From contig JANWYD010000020.1 in the NCBI GenBank assembly GCA_025057155.1, positions 1-64,000 on the forward strand: a DNA stretch of 64,000 bases. The letters run 5' to 3'. The first letter of the stretch is position 1, and every line of letters starts with the position of its first letter. This DNA is from Chloroflexaceae bacterium (lineage in GTDB: Bacteria > Chloroflexota > Chloroflexia > Chloroflexales > Chloroflexaceae). Below are positions 41,940 to 48,091 of the stretch, in pieces. The translations under genes were made by a program, and so were the position numbers. Under the pieces are notes generated by a model, which was not told the origin of the DNA, made no database searches, and saw only the letters and a list, made by a program, of their open reading frames with translations.

Positions 41940-42301
41940 GACGATGGAGGCGTGCCGGGGTGAAGTGCGGAACTGCCCTATCTGTCACGATGGCGACCCT
42001 CCCCGGCCCGCCGTGAGCGAGTCTGTTTCGAACCTGCGCAGCGCAGGTGGGCGCCCGCCTGTGAGCATCTGCGGCCCGCCGCACAGCTCAGCTTATGAGC
42101 GCAGGGCTCCCATCGAAACCGTGTTGGCTCAAAACACATACTCGCTCACGAGCGGTCAAGGATAGGCCGATCCTACCACGTCCAGGGGCGTTTTGCAAGT
42201 GACGCTCACGGCGATATTGAACACATTCTTGCCGCAGCGAGCGCTGAGGGCTTCAAAAAGCTCACCCGCTGCGTGCTCTGCGGCAAACCTGAACGCGCGC
42301 C
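41940..42301. other. non-coding spacer upstream of holA
   Basis: 362 bases between two minus-strand genes. GC-rich with several short hairpins (CACCTGCGCTGCGCAGGT at about 42036-42053) and a TTGACC on the minus strand near 42160. I looked for tRNA, SRP RNA and tmRNA features and found none convincing. Confidence 0.4.
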
Positions 42302-45129: not shown

Positions 45130-45623
45130 TTACAGATCGGTTAAGTGTGGAAATCACGTTCTCGATGATCTTTTAACCGGTTGTGAGATCTCGCTCCTCA
45201 CCCTCCCCGGCCTGGTCGCCACGAAACGGTCCGCAGAGGCCCCTCGCCCGGCGACTGAAGCCGCAGGTTATCCACCGTCCTGCGAAAGCCGCCTGGGCAG
45301 CATGCCAGAGCCGGCGCAGGCCGGCTTCGCAACAGTAGCCGGCGCCTGATGCATGAACGCTGCGGACTAAAGCCTGGCTGAGTTCATGCAATCCCCTGCG
45401 TGGCTTCCGTATCCTGAGCAAGGGCTTTAGCCCGCAGCGCGCCATGCCCCCGCAAGGAGCATGGCGGTACGCCGGATGCGTTTCTTGATCCTCATCAGGC
45501 GTCCGGCGGGCCGGGGGAGGCGACGCGCGCAAAAAACTTTTTTCGGCCCGCCCTCCCTCGCCTCGCTGCGTTCCCCAACCCCTCCCTCGCCACCTGTGGT
45601 CAAGAAATGGGCGAAGACCTCAC
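45130..45623. other. repeat-rich intergenic region
   Basis: No gene. Holds a copy of the AGCCnGCGCAGGC...GTAGCC element (about 45307-45345), an inverted GCTGCGGRCTAAAGC / GGGCTTTAGCCCGCAG element (about 45358-45440), and CTCACCCTCCCC-type fragments (45193-45210, 45545-45600). These separate the aro operon end from the PPC-protein promoter. Confidence 0.5.
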
Positions 45624-46640
45624 TCACAGGCTCCGACCCACCGCGGCGGCGACAGCGGCCAGTTTCGGCATCAGGGCGGCGAAGTTCTCCAGGTTGAGCG
45701 ACTGGCCGCCATCGGATCTGGCCCGATCGGGGTCGGGATGCACCTCGATGATGATGCCGTCGGCGCCTGCGGCAATGCCGGCCAGGGCCAGAGGGGGCGC
45801 CAGGTACCACTTGCCGGTGCCATGGCTGGGGTCCACAATTACGGGCAGGTGGGTGCGGCGCTTGGCCAGGGCGACAGCGTTAAGGTCGAGGGTGTTCCGC
45901 GTCGCGGTTTCAAAGGTGCGAATGCCGCGCTCGCACAGGATGACGTTGGGGTTGCCCTGGGCCACCACATACTCTGCGGAAAGCAACCACTCTTCGATGG
46001 TAGCCGAGAGGCCGCGTTTGAGCAGCACAGGCATGCCGGTGCGACCGACCTCTTCGAGGAGCTGATAGTTCTGCATATTACGGGCGCCGATCTGCAAGAC
46101 ATCCGCGTAGCGGGCTACCAGGTCCACATCGTTGGGCGCCATCACCTCGGTGACGATCGGCAGGCCGGTCTCCTCGCGCGCCTGGGCCAGCAGGCGCAGC
46201 CCTTCTTCACCCAGCCCGCGAAAGGTGTAAGGCGAGGAACGGGGTTTGAAGGCGCCCCCGCGTAGCATAGTCGCGCCCGCTTCGCGCACGGCCCGGGCGG
46301 TAGCCATGATCTGCTCTTCGCTCTCCACTGAGCAGGGGCCGGCAATGACCACGCAGCGGTGTCCGCCCACCATGATGCCGCTTACGTCAACCACGGTATC
46401 GGCGGGGCGCAGTTCGCGCGAGACAAGCTTGTAGGGCTGGGTAATGCGCAGGGTCTCTTTGACCCCGGCGAAGTGTTCGAGCTCTTCCCGCAGGGTCGGC
46501 GGGATGGTTGCGCCAACCACGCCAATCACCGTGCGTTCGGCCCCGCGCACCAGGTGGCCGCGTAAGTGGTGTTCTTCCAGGCGCTCGATTACCGCCTGGA
46601 TCTGCGCGTCGTTCGAACCGGTTTGCATTACGACGATCAT
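45624..46640 (-). CDS. aroF: 3-deoxy-7-phosphoheptulonate (DAHP) synthase, AroA-I-beta type
   Basis: 338 residues; first step of the shikimate pathway, joining phosphoenolpyruvate and erythrose-4-phosphate. An N-terminal regulatory ferredoxin-like domain ('[19 protein letters not shown]', '[15 protein letters not shown]') precedes the TIM barrel with '[15 protein letters not shown]', '[19 protein letters not shown]', '[14 protein letters not shown]', '[11 protein letters not shown]' and '[17 protein letters not shown]'. Start: ATG 46640, the family start, with GGAGAAGGAG upstream; an ATG at 46739 would add 33 residues. It follows aroH and is expected to share its attenuated promoter. Confidence 0.95.
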
Positions 46641-46755
46641 GGCCTCAACTCCTTCTCCTGAGACGACAAAGCGCTGGTCGAGCGTGGGCGGCGACACCGC
46701 CCGCAGTACGGTCCTGGCCGTGGTCGGTTGGGGGCTCATCACATGCCTCTTTATA

Positions 46756-46788
46756 CCAATTCCCGTTGAACATCGTGCATGCGCATCA
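46756..46788 (+). repeat. CCAATTCCCGTTG element, copy 2
   Basis: CCAATTCCCGTTG, six variable bases, then GTGCATGCGCATCA, in the aroH-aroF gap. Partner of 37443-37475. A TTTTGGAT-family run lies just after it (46807-46830). Confidence 0.6.
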
Positions 46789-46835
46789 TTGCCATAGCGA
46801 CTACAGCAATCCAAAATTCACAATCCGAAATGGCA

Positions 46836-47237
46836 CTAGACCTCGGGCGGCGCCTGAAAGGCCGCCAGGGCGGTCTCCCGATCGGGGCGCAGATTCTGGG
46901 CACCCTTGATGTATACGTGCACAATCTCGTCGGCGCGGCGCTCGGTGTTCCAGTGGATGAGCACGCGGATACAGCTCCGCAGGCTGCCGGGAACATCCAT
47001 CTCGTGACCGCAGAGCAAGGCCGTGTCCGTCCAGCCGATAGCGCGGGCGGCCACGGCGGGAAACTCGGCATTCAGATCGGGCGTAGTGGTGAAAATGGCG
47101 CTGGCGATGTCGTCAACGTGAATCCCGTTGCGCTCGACAAGCAACTCCAGCAACTCGCGGGTTGCCGTGAGGATGGCCTCACGGGTGTTGGCCTCGCACG
47201 TCGTCGCTCCGCGGACACCGCGACACCGAACGGTCAT
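46836..47237 (-). CDS. aroH: chorismate mutase, AroH class (monofunctional)
   Basis: 133 residues, the trimeric AroH fold, converting chorismate to prephenate for Phe and Tyr synthesis. Seen: '[18 protein letters not shown]' (active-site Arg in 'RGATT'), '[19 protein letters not shown]' and '[12 protein letters not shown]'. The ATG at 47237 has GGGAGG seven bases before it; the longer frame to 47321 runs through the leader hairpin. First structural gene of the aroH-aroF operon. The leader upstream encodes a Phe/Tyr-rich peptide, so expression is probably controlled by aromatic amino acid supply. Confidence 0.95.
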
Positions 47238-47268
47238 AACTGGCCTCCCTGCTGTGGTGGACAAGCAG

Positions 47269-47301
47269 AGAGGGCGTGAAGCCTGGTGCTTCACGCCCTC
47301 T
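47269..47301 (-). terminator. leader terminator-type hairpin before aroH
   Basis: A 14-bp perfect stem. In the minus-strand RNA, AGAGGGCGUGAAGC (47301-47288), loop ACCAG and GCUUCACGCCCUCU (47282-47269). It ends 32 bases before the aroH start. The following bases (CUGCUUGUCC) are only weakly U-rich, so it may be a Rho-assisted or pausing terminator. Confidence 0.7.
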
Positions 47302-47356
47302 GTACGAGTTGTCTCTGGCAACCGGTGACAGGTCTAGACAGTGCGAAGCAACCAGG
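47282..47356 (-). promoter_or_regulatory. predicted antiterminator pairing in the aroH leader
   Basis: In the minus-strand RNA CCUGGUUGCUUCGC (47356-47343) can pair with GUGAAGCACCAGG (47294-47282): about 13 pairs with one bulged U and one G-U. The second strand covers part of the 5' arm, the loop and the first base of the 3' arm of the terminator-type hairpin. The two structures are therefore mutually exclusive. The first strand lies within codons 21-25 of the leader peptide, just after the Phe/Tyr-rich codons. Pairing was worked out by eye. Confidence 0.65.
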
Positions 47357-47417
47357 CCGTATGTGGGCTGGTAAAGTAATAAAAGTAGCGAGAAAAGCTG
47401 TGGAGTCGCTGTGCCAT
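47334..47417 (-). CDS. aroH operon leader peptide (27 aa, Phe/Tyr-rich)
   Basis: ATG at 47417 to TAG at 47336-47334. Residues 8-15 are FSRYFYYF, with six of eight aromatic, and Trp22 follows. AAAAGGGCGG precedes the ATG. The frame starts about 30 bases after the predicted transcription start and ends before the terminator-type hairpin. Ribosome stalling on the Phe or Tyr codons would leave 47343-47356 free to form the antiterminator. This is the arrangement of classical pheA/trp-type attenuation (established in enterobacteria). The peptide has no other recognisable function. Confidence 0.75.
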   Translation of the reverse strand: MAQRLHSFSRYFYYFTSPHTAWLLRTV

Positions 47418-47453
47418 GCGGCAACCGCCCTTTTATTACGCTTCGCTGGGGCG

Positions 47454-47482
47454 ACTATAACACAGGCGCCGGGTTCCGTCAA
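47454..47482 (-). promoter_or_regulatory. promoter of the aroH-aroF operon
   Basis: On the minus strand TTGACG (47482-47477), 17-base spacer, TATAGT (47459-47454). Predicted transcription start is near 47447, giving a leader of about 210 bases before aroH. Confidence 0.8.
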
Positions 47483-47485
47483 GAC

Positions 47486-48091
47486 TCACTGGCCGAGCAA
47501 TTCTTCAGCTTCGATGATGGCCTGGGCGATGTCCTTCATCTTGGCGCGCTTGTCACGGGCGCGCTGCCGCAGACGCTCATAGGCGTCGCGTTCATTGAGG
47601 CCCAGGCGCTGCATCAGAATGCCTTTAGCGCGCTCGATCAGCTTGCGCGCCTCCAGCGACTCTTCCAGGTCCATAACCTGCTGGCGCAGGGCCTGGATTT
47701 CGCGGAAGCGCGCCAGCGCGATGTTGATCGCCGGGGGCAGTTCGTTCTCATTGACCGGTTTCACCAGATAGGCCAGCGCACCGGCGGTCTCAGCTTTTTT
47801 GATTGTCTCTTTATCGGCATAGGCCGTCAGCATGATGATGGGAACGGGATAGATCTCGCGAATGCGATTGGCGGCTTCCGTGCCCTCCATCTCAGGCATG
47901 CGAATGTCCATGATGATCAGATCCGGCCGCAGACGCCCGGCCAGACTCACGGCTTCCGCGCCTGAACGAGCAATGCCAATCACGTCATACCCTAACCCCT
48001 TGAGTTGCTCCTCAAGGGTGAGCGAGACCAGATCGTTGTCTTCGGCGATCAGGATCCTGATTGCAGCCACGACGGCACCTTCGTTCCGCAT
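47486..48091 (-). CDS. ANTAR-domain response regulator (PdtaR/AmiR type)
   Basis: 201 residues. Receiver domain with acidic pocket 'LIAEDN', phospho-acceptor Asp in 'DLIIMDIRMP' and Lys in 'AYLVKPV' (residues about 12-125). A coiled linker is followed by an ANTAR RNA-binding domain ('LIERAKGILMQRLGLNERDAYERLRQRA', positions about 148-176, then 'MKDIAQAII'). ANTAR regulators bind paired hairpins in nascent RNA and prevent termination when phosphorylated. Cognate kinase not adjacent. Start 48091; a GTG eight codons later has a better ribosome-binding site. Confidence 0.9.
   Translation of the reverse strand: MRNEGAVVAAIRILIAEDNDLVSLTLEEQLKGLGYDVIGIARSGAEAVSLAGRLRPDLIIMDIRMPEMEGTEAANRIREIYPVPIIMLTAYADKETIKKAETAGALAYLVKPVNENELPPAINIALARFREIQALRQQVMDLEESLEARKLIERAKGILMQRLGLNERDAYERLRQRARDKRAKMKDIAQAIIEAEELLGQ

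Follow-up and report, generated by a model that had tools for sequence, protein, structure and literature searches.

A probable Phe/Tyr attenuator ahead of aroH and a DAHP synthase gene in Chloroflexota

The minus strand of the window, which is the whole stretch of 64,000 nucleotides analysed here, very probably carries a ribosome-mediated transcription attenuator that responds to Phe and Tyr and precedes aroH and a DAHP synthase gene. The parts of the locus follow one another as promoter, 27-codon leader, antiterminator strand, 14-bp hairpin, aroH and the DAHP synthase gene. Attenuation by ribosome stalling at Phe/Tyr codons had been proposed in an initial annotation of the region, and the comparative tests on codon retention and helix covariation argue strongly for it.

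Organization of the locus

The leader region is situated between the gene of an ANTAR response regulator (47486-48091) and aroH (47237-46836) on the minus strand. The following features were delineated:

47486-48091, minus strand: ANTAR response regulator gene (receiver and ANTAR domain), directly upstream of the aroH leader
47454-47482, minus strand: promoter with -35 box TTGACG (47482-47477), 17-nt spacer and extended -10 box TG-n-TATAGT (47459-47454)
47430-47446, minus strand: strand 1 in the 5' UTR (GCGAAGCGUAAUAAAAG), whose partners in the predicted untranslated fold are the Phe/Tyr codons and the terminal part of strand 2
47334-47417, minus strand: leader ORF of 27 codons plus stop (MAQRLHSFSRYFYYFTSPHTAWLLRTV), ATG at 47417 and stop codon UAG at 47336-47334
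47373-47396, minus strand: control codons F-S-R-Y-F-Y-Y-F, enriched against the window background and conserved by position
47343-47358, minus strand: strand 2, the 5' half of the antiterminator, which falls within the end of the leader ORF; its duplex beats shuffles and shows covariation
47280-47294, minus strand: strand 3, the 3' half of the antiterminator, comprising part of the 5' arm of the hairpin, its loop and the first bases of the 3' arm
47269-47301, minus strand: terminator hairpin (strands 3:4) of 14 bp with a 5-nt loop; the weak U-tract CTGCTTGTCC comes after it
47244-47273, minus strand: possible third hairpin, in which 47273-47264 could pair over 10 bases with the Shine-Dalgarno (SD) region of aroH at 47253-47244
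46836-47237, minus strand: aroH, monofunctional chorismate mutase (PF07736 / TIGR01796), with an SD-like AGGGAGG at 47250-47244
45624-46640, minus strand: aroF-like DAHP synthase gene (PF00793 and N-terminal ferredoxin-like domain PF18152), with a presumed ATG position

Chorismate mutase (aroH) and DAHP synthase had been named as the targets, and the domain matches (PF07736/TIGR01796 and PF00793/PF18152) bear out both identities. Among named records, the closest relatives of AroH are labelled Chloroflexaceae, Chloroflexales or Chloroflexi. The DAHP synthase gene is probably the second gene of the operon. It follows aroH on the same strand at 71 of the 76 aroH loci of the host order; the sequence of the other five stops within 590 nt of the aroH start, before any DAHP synthase gene. 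No promoter- or terminator-like site was found on the minus strand within 45400-46900.

The promoter was recovered as first described, i.e. TTGACG and TATAGT at a distance of 17 nt, on the minus strand and with a TG preceding the -10 box. Transcription is predicted to start near 47447. The promoter-like site is unique in the 801 bases searched on both strands (0.1 expected). By sequence criteria, a promoter with at least 9 of 12 matches is located ahead of the leader at 72 of 73 loci of the order, for which shuffles expect 4.6. A transcription start downstream of the leader, which would speak against attenuation, is not hinted at by the sequence, and the conserved promoter is upstream of the leader. 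An SD-like motif precedes the start codon of the leader at 42 of 71 loci (12.7 expected; two of the 73 loci had too little sequence for this count). The SD candidate of the leader in the window is just AAAAGGG, ending 10 nt before the ATG.

Aromatic codons of the leader

For the host order, 82 genomes were searched. The aroH family is present in 75 of them, giving 76 loci. A leader was recorded by script when at least 4 F/Y occurred in 9 residues within 350 nt. The 73 loci with such an F/Y-rich leader leave three without: L076 starts inside aroH, and L006 and L015 of genus g27 carry a promoter-like site, a hairpin and a degenerate leader that has only three F/Y, located with the covariance model about 550 nt upstream of the chorismate mutase domain. 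At the two g27 loci, this domain is found within a longer open frame of about 310 aa.

The 27-codon frame with FSRYFYYF, as initially annotated, is present at 47417-47334 on the minus strand. It is the only one of the 714 window ORFs of 8-70 aa (both strands) with at least 6 F/Y in 9 residues; at the looser threshold of at least 4 F/Y in 9 residues, five of the 714 ORFs qualify, the leader included. When stop-free stretches were counted in all six frames of the window, at least 6 F/Y per 9 codons were obtained in 2 of 108,134, both within the leader. A run of five F/Y codons is by itself no evidence, since this pattern has 5 matches in the genome and the reversed control pattern is commoner with 11. 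The four matches other than the leader are all located in open frames of 395-749 codons.

Retained Phe/Tyr codons in relatives had been suggested as a check. Besides the F/Y-rich short frame at 73 of the 76 loci, the positions themselves are retained: the six codons ending at the last F/Y encode F/Y/W in 100, 96, 91, 71, 73 and 73% of the 56 distinct codon strings, among which UUU, UUC, UAU and UAC are all in use. The bases vary among these strings and the aromatic character stays; hence, a property is conserved while the sequence changes. Trp codons are mixed into the F/Y stretch (e.g. YYFWFWYF) at L007, L008, L012-L014, L016, L018, L019 and L056. Trp-containing leaders in several genera suggest that all three aromatic amino acids could be sensed, and with the added Trp codons the specificity of the attenuator may be wider than Phe/Tyr.

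Pairing and covariation of the helices

A 14-bp terminator-type hairpin before aroH had been noted and was found at 47301-47269. It has a loop of 5 nt and ends 31 nt upstream of the aroH ATG and 18 nt upstream of the aroH SD. The upstream strand assigned to pair with it, 47356-47343, was right to within two bases, as 47358-47343 is complementary to 47294-47280. Folding of the whole leader gave z = -4.71 against shuffles. The pairing of strand 2 with strand 3 amounts to -34.4 kcal/mol in the window compared to a shuffled mean of -20.6 kcal/mol, and 0 of 200 shuffles were as strong.

Compensatory changes were sought in relatives, as had likewise been suggested, and were detected in both helices. 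The helix alignment comprised 52 of the 73 loci; excluded were L002, whose hairpin is lost, L027 and L053 because of script errors, ten loci of the divergent genus g34 and the eight near-duplicates L021, L035, L045 and L069-L073. Cultured relatives that carry the leader include Chloroflexus islandicus (L035/L086) and Candidatus Chloroploca asiatica (L021/L083). Over the 52 loci, 95.2% of the terminator cells are paired, with 88 double-change cells at 8 of 14 pairs. For the antiterminator, 91.7% are paired, with 23 double-change cells at 5 of 11 pairs. None of 500 shuffles reached these values for either helix. When the antiterminator was slid by 1-3 columns, pairing dropped to 31-52%. Further pair types are unremarkable, being reached by 48 of 500 shuffles for the antiterminator and 480 of 500 for the terminator.

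Strand 2 was also swapped among 31 genus representatives, excluding L002. The mean was -26.5 kcal/mol with the own partner and -23.2 kcal/mol after swapping, and 0 of 5000 permutations gave this difference. Genus by genus the effect is blunt because the strand sequences are alike: the own partner is best in 4 of 31 genera, and at least five foreign partners are stronger in 19 of 31. Tested locus by locus, the alternative pairing beats 95% of its own shuffles in 50 of the 73 loci of the order. The 23 loci below this value consist of 13 in the divergent genera g20 and g34, three with a lost or misassigned hairpin and seven others.

A conserved 1:2 protector stem was rejected, since the order-wide pairing of strand 1 is no better than chance (11 of 73 loci at or below 5% of shuffles; window, 15%). 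The strand 1 stem is at most a minor or genus-level feature.

The weak U-run after the hairpin, likewise noted initially, was confirmed. The tail reads CTGCTTGTCC, the window and two sister genomes have 3 T in 10 bases after the stem, and a scan for consensus terminators lists no site in the leader region of the window. By the same scripted count, at least 5 T in ten bases follow the stem at 60 of 73 loci compared to 11.5% of control decamers; L044, for example, has a strong U-tract. The count of 60 is probably an underestimate, because the hairpin finder took a wrong or partial stem in L009, L036, L040 and the g34 loci L050, L052, L054 and L055. Similarly, the leader script picked the wrong hairpin in L027 and the wrong short frame in L053; on reading of the sequence, both show a normal hairpin.

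Loss of the short frame or of the alternative pairing in close relatives had been named as an observation against the attenuator. Of the five genus members, window included, four retain both, and the fifth, G001, has mostly lost the hairpin. This genus member (locus L002, G001:C383) keeps the promoter and the Phe/Tyr leader, and most of its terminator hairpin is gone, which would reflect a gap in the assembly or else a genuine loss of attenuation.

Proposed switch and stepwise folding

From the sequence elements we infer stalling, termination, co-transcription of aroH with the DAHP synthase gene and the physiological signal. Transcription would start near 47447. When charged tRNA-Phe and tRNA-Tyr are plentiful, the ribosome would reach the stop codon of the leader (47336-47334) and cover strand 2, whereupon the 14-bp hairpin could form and transcription would end. 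Under a shortage of Phe or Tyr, the ribosome would stall at FSRYFYYF (47396-47373), leaving strand 2 (47358-47343) free past its edge. Strand 2 could then pair with the emerging strand 3 (47294-47280), the terminator would be delayed and RNA polymerase would read on. The expression of aroH, and presumably of the DAHP synthase gene too, would be set by the supply of charged tRNA-Phe and tRNA-Tyr.

The geometry fits this switch: 47373 is the final base of the last F codon, and strand 2 occupies 47358-47343 and the stop codon 47336-47334. Following PMC4833913, the ribosome was assumed to cover up to 12 nt of RNA downstream. Folding was predicted for transcripts of increasing length, with ends given in nt before aroH. 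With the ribosome at the last Phe codon, the predicted minimum is 2:3 for ends at -49 to -34, a range that extends from the first appearance of 2:3 to the emergence of the final bases of strand 4. At -31 to -10 the minimum is the terminator, and from -7 on it is 2:3 once more. With the ribosome at the stop codon, the terminator forms and 2:3 never does. In the fold without a ribosome, 2:3 is the minimum at -43 and -40 only and the terminator thereafter. Since the terminator is the predicted minimum at -31 to -10 even in the stalled state, the switch would have to be kinetic. The folding prediction thus fits attenuation, with a stalled state that depends on timing. Known attenuators likewise depend on timing.

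Pairing at the ribosome-binding site of aroH

Instead of or besides transcription, the leader might control translation, in that stalling exposes or hides the ribosome-binding site of aroH; in the family of the window, the hairpin would then act mainly via this site. We consider this unlikely. It would suit the weak U-tract of the window and the 10-base complementarity between tail and SD region. The end of strand 4 and the tail pair with the aroH SD region at -17.0 kcal/mol when folded alone, a value which is not significant by itself as 10.5% of the shuffles of the SD region pair as well, and the full predicted fold of the stalled state consists of 2:3 and the SD hairpin. A tail/SD pairing of -15 kcal/mol or better was obtained for 18 of 70 loci of the order, all in the host family and including G001, which keeps this pairing without the terminator. 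For this test, L027, L053 and one locus with too little sequence between hairpin and gene were excluded from the 73.

However, only 8 of the 70 loci beat 95% of the SD-region shuffles, and a C/U-rich tail beside a purine-rich SD may alone explain the complementarity. The sign is odd as well: formation of 2:3 frees the end of strand 4, so that the aroH SD could be hidden just when transcription is let through, i.e. under starvation. Furthermore, 18 nt separate the terminator hairpin itself from the SD, the spacing between hairpin and aroH differs greatly among relatives, and at 60 of the 73 loci the hairpin is followed by at least 5 T in ten bases, as described above. If real, the SD hairpin may form a translational layer of unexpected sign and would account for the poor U-tract. 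The tail/SD pairing lowered our confidence in the transcription attenuator slightly, leaving it high, and raised that in translational control by a similarly small amount.

ANTAR regulator upstream of the leader

ANTAR proteins are RNA-binding antiterminators, whose target motif consists of hexaloop hairpins with A1 and G4. The response regulator encoded upstream could therefore cause antitermination by binding a tandem hexaloop RNA in the leader. This was rejected as very improbable. The neighbouring gene with its receiver and ANTAR domains is found upstream of aroH at 31 of 76 loci, but no such gene was seen at another 40 loci whose upstream sequence exceeds 1,100 nt, and nearly all of these have the leader (the remaining five of the 76 have too little upstream sequence). 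The target motif occurs at chance level: at least one A1/G4 hexaloop hairpin is present in 15 of 73 leaders compared to 17.7% of shuffles, and at least two in 1 of 73 compared to 1.6%. The F/Y codons would also be left unexplained. The RNA target of the upstream ANTAR regulator is apparently not the aroH leader.

Strand 2 in different reading frames

Just as improbable is an arrest of the TnaC type, in which the nascent peptide would sense an aromatic amino acid or another small molecule instead of codon starvation. Strand 2 is located in the end of the leader ORF, and in part of the order the C-terminal part does look conserved as a peptide (e.g. PHTAWSLRTV). With a loose motif, strand 2 was found in frame 1 at 51 loci, where it reads W-L-L-R, W-S-L-R and variants, in frame 0 at three and in frame 2 at seven; in L053 it follows the stop codon of the leader, and 11 loci do not have the search motif. 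Of the seven frame-2 loci, six are from the divergent genus g34, in which the pairing fails to beat shuffles, so that an exact 12-mer match is the safer statement of the frame change. The identical strand-2 12-mer GGTTGCTTCGCG is in frame 1 at 12 loci (W-L-L-R), in frame 0 at L056 (G-C-F-A), in frame 2 at L033 (L-V-A-S-R) and past the stop codon at L053. As the same 12-mer is used in three frames across genera, strand 2 is conserved as RNA and not as peptide, which argues against a peptide-specific arrest. Moreover, the F/Y stretch swaps freely between F and Y, and leaders outside the order end in other C-termini. The conserved part of the leader peptide is the aromatic stretch. One RNA 12-mer in three frames is an unusually clean natural experiment separating constraint on the RNA from constraint on the peptide.

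Distribution within the order and beyond

With the covariance model, matches were obtained in 67 of the 82 genomes of the order at an E-value of up to 0.01, and the strongest match of most genomes is the one at aroH. Seven of the many weaker off-target matches were read for extra copies of the attenuator; none of the seven has an F/Y leader (maximum 5 F/Y/W in 9), and most resemble end-of-gene terminators. Other genes of the pathway were inspected in the family over 450 nt upstream. Before trpE, no stop-free stretch of nine codons has at least 4 W (scanned at 28 of 30 loci; maximum 3), and before the prephenate dehydratase gene none has at least 6 F/Y (scanned at 28 of 30 loci; maximum 4).

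Beyond the order, a short upstream ORF with at least 6 F/Y/W in 9 was found at 37 of 115 loci and on the opposite strand at 1 of 115. The 115 loci derive mostly from other groups with a few repeats of the order, and the scan of L145 is meaningless for want of upstream sequence. Named matches outside the order include records of Anaerolineae, Ardenticatenia and Caldilineae. Before aroH, an F/Y leader was found in 0 of 7 records labelled Dehalococcoidia and 0 of 12 labelled as Planctomycetes group that had upstream sequence. Among 61 representatives of the phylum, 17 match, or 16 minus one doubtful case, across 11 family labels.

A chance origin, i.e. a random F/Y-rich frame beside the ordinary terminator of the upstream gene, which ends at 47486 on the same strand, would fit the resemblance of the other covariance-model matches read to end-of-gene terminators, but is refuted by the order-wide recurrence, the window background, the covarying changes in the two helices and the control on the opposite strand (1 of 115), so that its probability is negligible.

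For 33 of the 37 matches outside the order the alternative pairing was tested, excluding L104, L108 and L119 (members of the order again) and L207 (protein part-like). It is better than 95% of shuffles in 18 of the 33 and not in the other 15. Several of these pairings use sequences unlike those of the order (L109, L116, L139). The core GCGUGGAGC of the terminator arm is common to the order and some outside loci (e.g. L106, L121, L124), which hints at a common descent of their leaders.

A wider reading, on which our judgement is evenly balanced, is that several Chloroflexota classes (Chloroflexia, Anaerolineae, Ardenticatenia and Caldilineae) inherited the attenuator from a common ancestor. It would couple the total charging of Phe and Tyr tRNAs, in some genera also of Trp tRNA, to the entry of the shikimate pathway and the chorismate branch. 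The antiterminator strand would have drifted between frames and sometimes past the stop codon with its RNA pairing kept, the peptide being a disposable sensor. In the host family, the tail of the terminator would possibly also be a lid on the ribosome-binding site of aroH, forming a three-hairpin switch, which would explain the poor U-tract.

Relation to known attenuators

The leaders of E. coli pheA (pheL) and trp are the classical leader-peptide attenuators. The locus described here shares with them a translated leader rich in codons for the product, a terminator hairpin, a competing antiterminator and a biosynthetic gene downstream. Unlike these, it is found in another phylum, the target is aroH-DAHP synthase and not pheA or trpE, the Chloroflexota leaders mix Phe and Tyr codons (in some genera also Trp), and there is no conserved 1:2 protector stem. 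T-box riboswitches sense tRNA charging as well and control biosynthesis genes, often through a terminator. In the present leader, by contrast, the sensor would be a translated ORF, and Rfam detects no T-box. A T-box or another Rfam element in the leader was rejected, as no match reached the gathering score and no T-box was found at an E-value of up to 10 in 47200-47500.

Proteobacteria and Actinobacteria are the groups from which leader-peptide attenuation is best known (PMC4833913, PMC1262725). For some groups, Chloroflexota among them, the leader-gene diagrams are described as noise (PMC4833913). Outside Proteobacteria, trp attenuators with predicted leader peptide, terminator and antiterminator are described in Actinobacteria (PMC1262725). 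They differ in that they concern the trp operon and UGG codons, and no Phe/Tyr leader is mentioned in the passages of PMC1262725 considered. The nearest published item found is the uORFC-13-1 motif, which is described in PMC8632094 as an upstream ORF with at least one Phe codon and an apparent intrinsic terminator before aroF, known from 24 sequences of only Acholeplasma and environmental sequences of unknown origin. Both have a Phe-codon upstream ORF ahead of an apparent terminator and a DAHP synthase gene. Compared by description, the leader reported here is set apart from uORFC-13-1 in that it has as many as eight F/Y in nine residues, precedes aroH as the first of the genes, possesses an antiterminator that covaries and is widespread in Chloroflexota.

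It had been assumed initially that leader-peptide attenuation is little described in Chloroflexota. In agreement with this, no Phe/Tyr attenuator of this phylum is described among the literature matches listed; a survey of 2010 (Lopatovskaya et al.) could contain cases. The mechanism is classical; what appears to be new is its recurrence, as far as read from sequence, across Chloroflexota on the aroH-DAHP synthase operon with covariation of the helices. Chloroflexota thereby gains a testable regulator of aromatic amino acid synthesis. According to a comparative study (PMC3766115), the four attenuator motifs then in Rfam may stem from gamma-Proteobacteria with very few transfers. If the ancestral reading is true, leader-peptide attenuation would lie deep in a phylum far from this proposed source (PMC3766115).

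No family of Rfam 15 matches the leader, and the aligned leaders constitute a seed alignment for a family absent from this release. Elsewhere on the minus strand of the window, Rfam detects a 6S RNA at 41995-42166 (65.6 bits) and, at 1580-1603, one match to the CRISPR direct repeat CRISPR-DR28 (E-value 0.0023).
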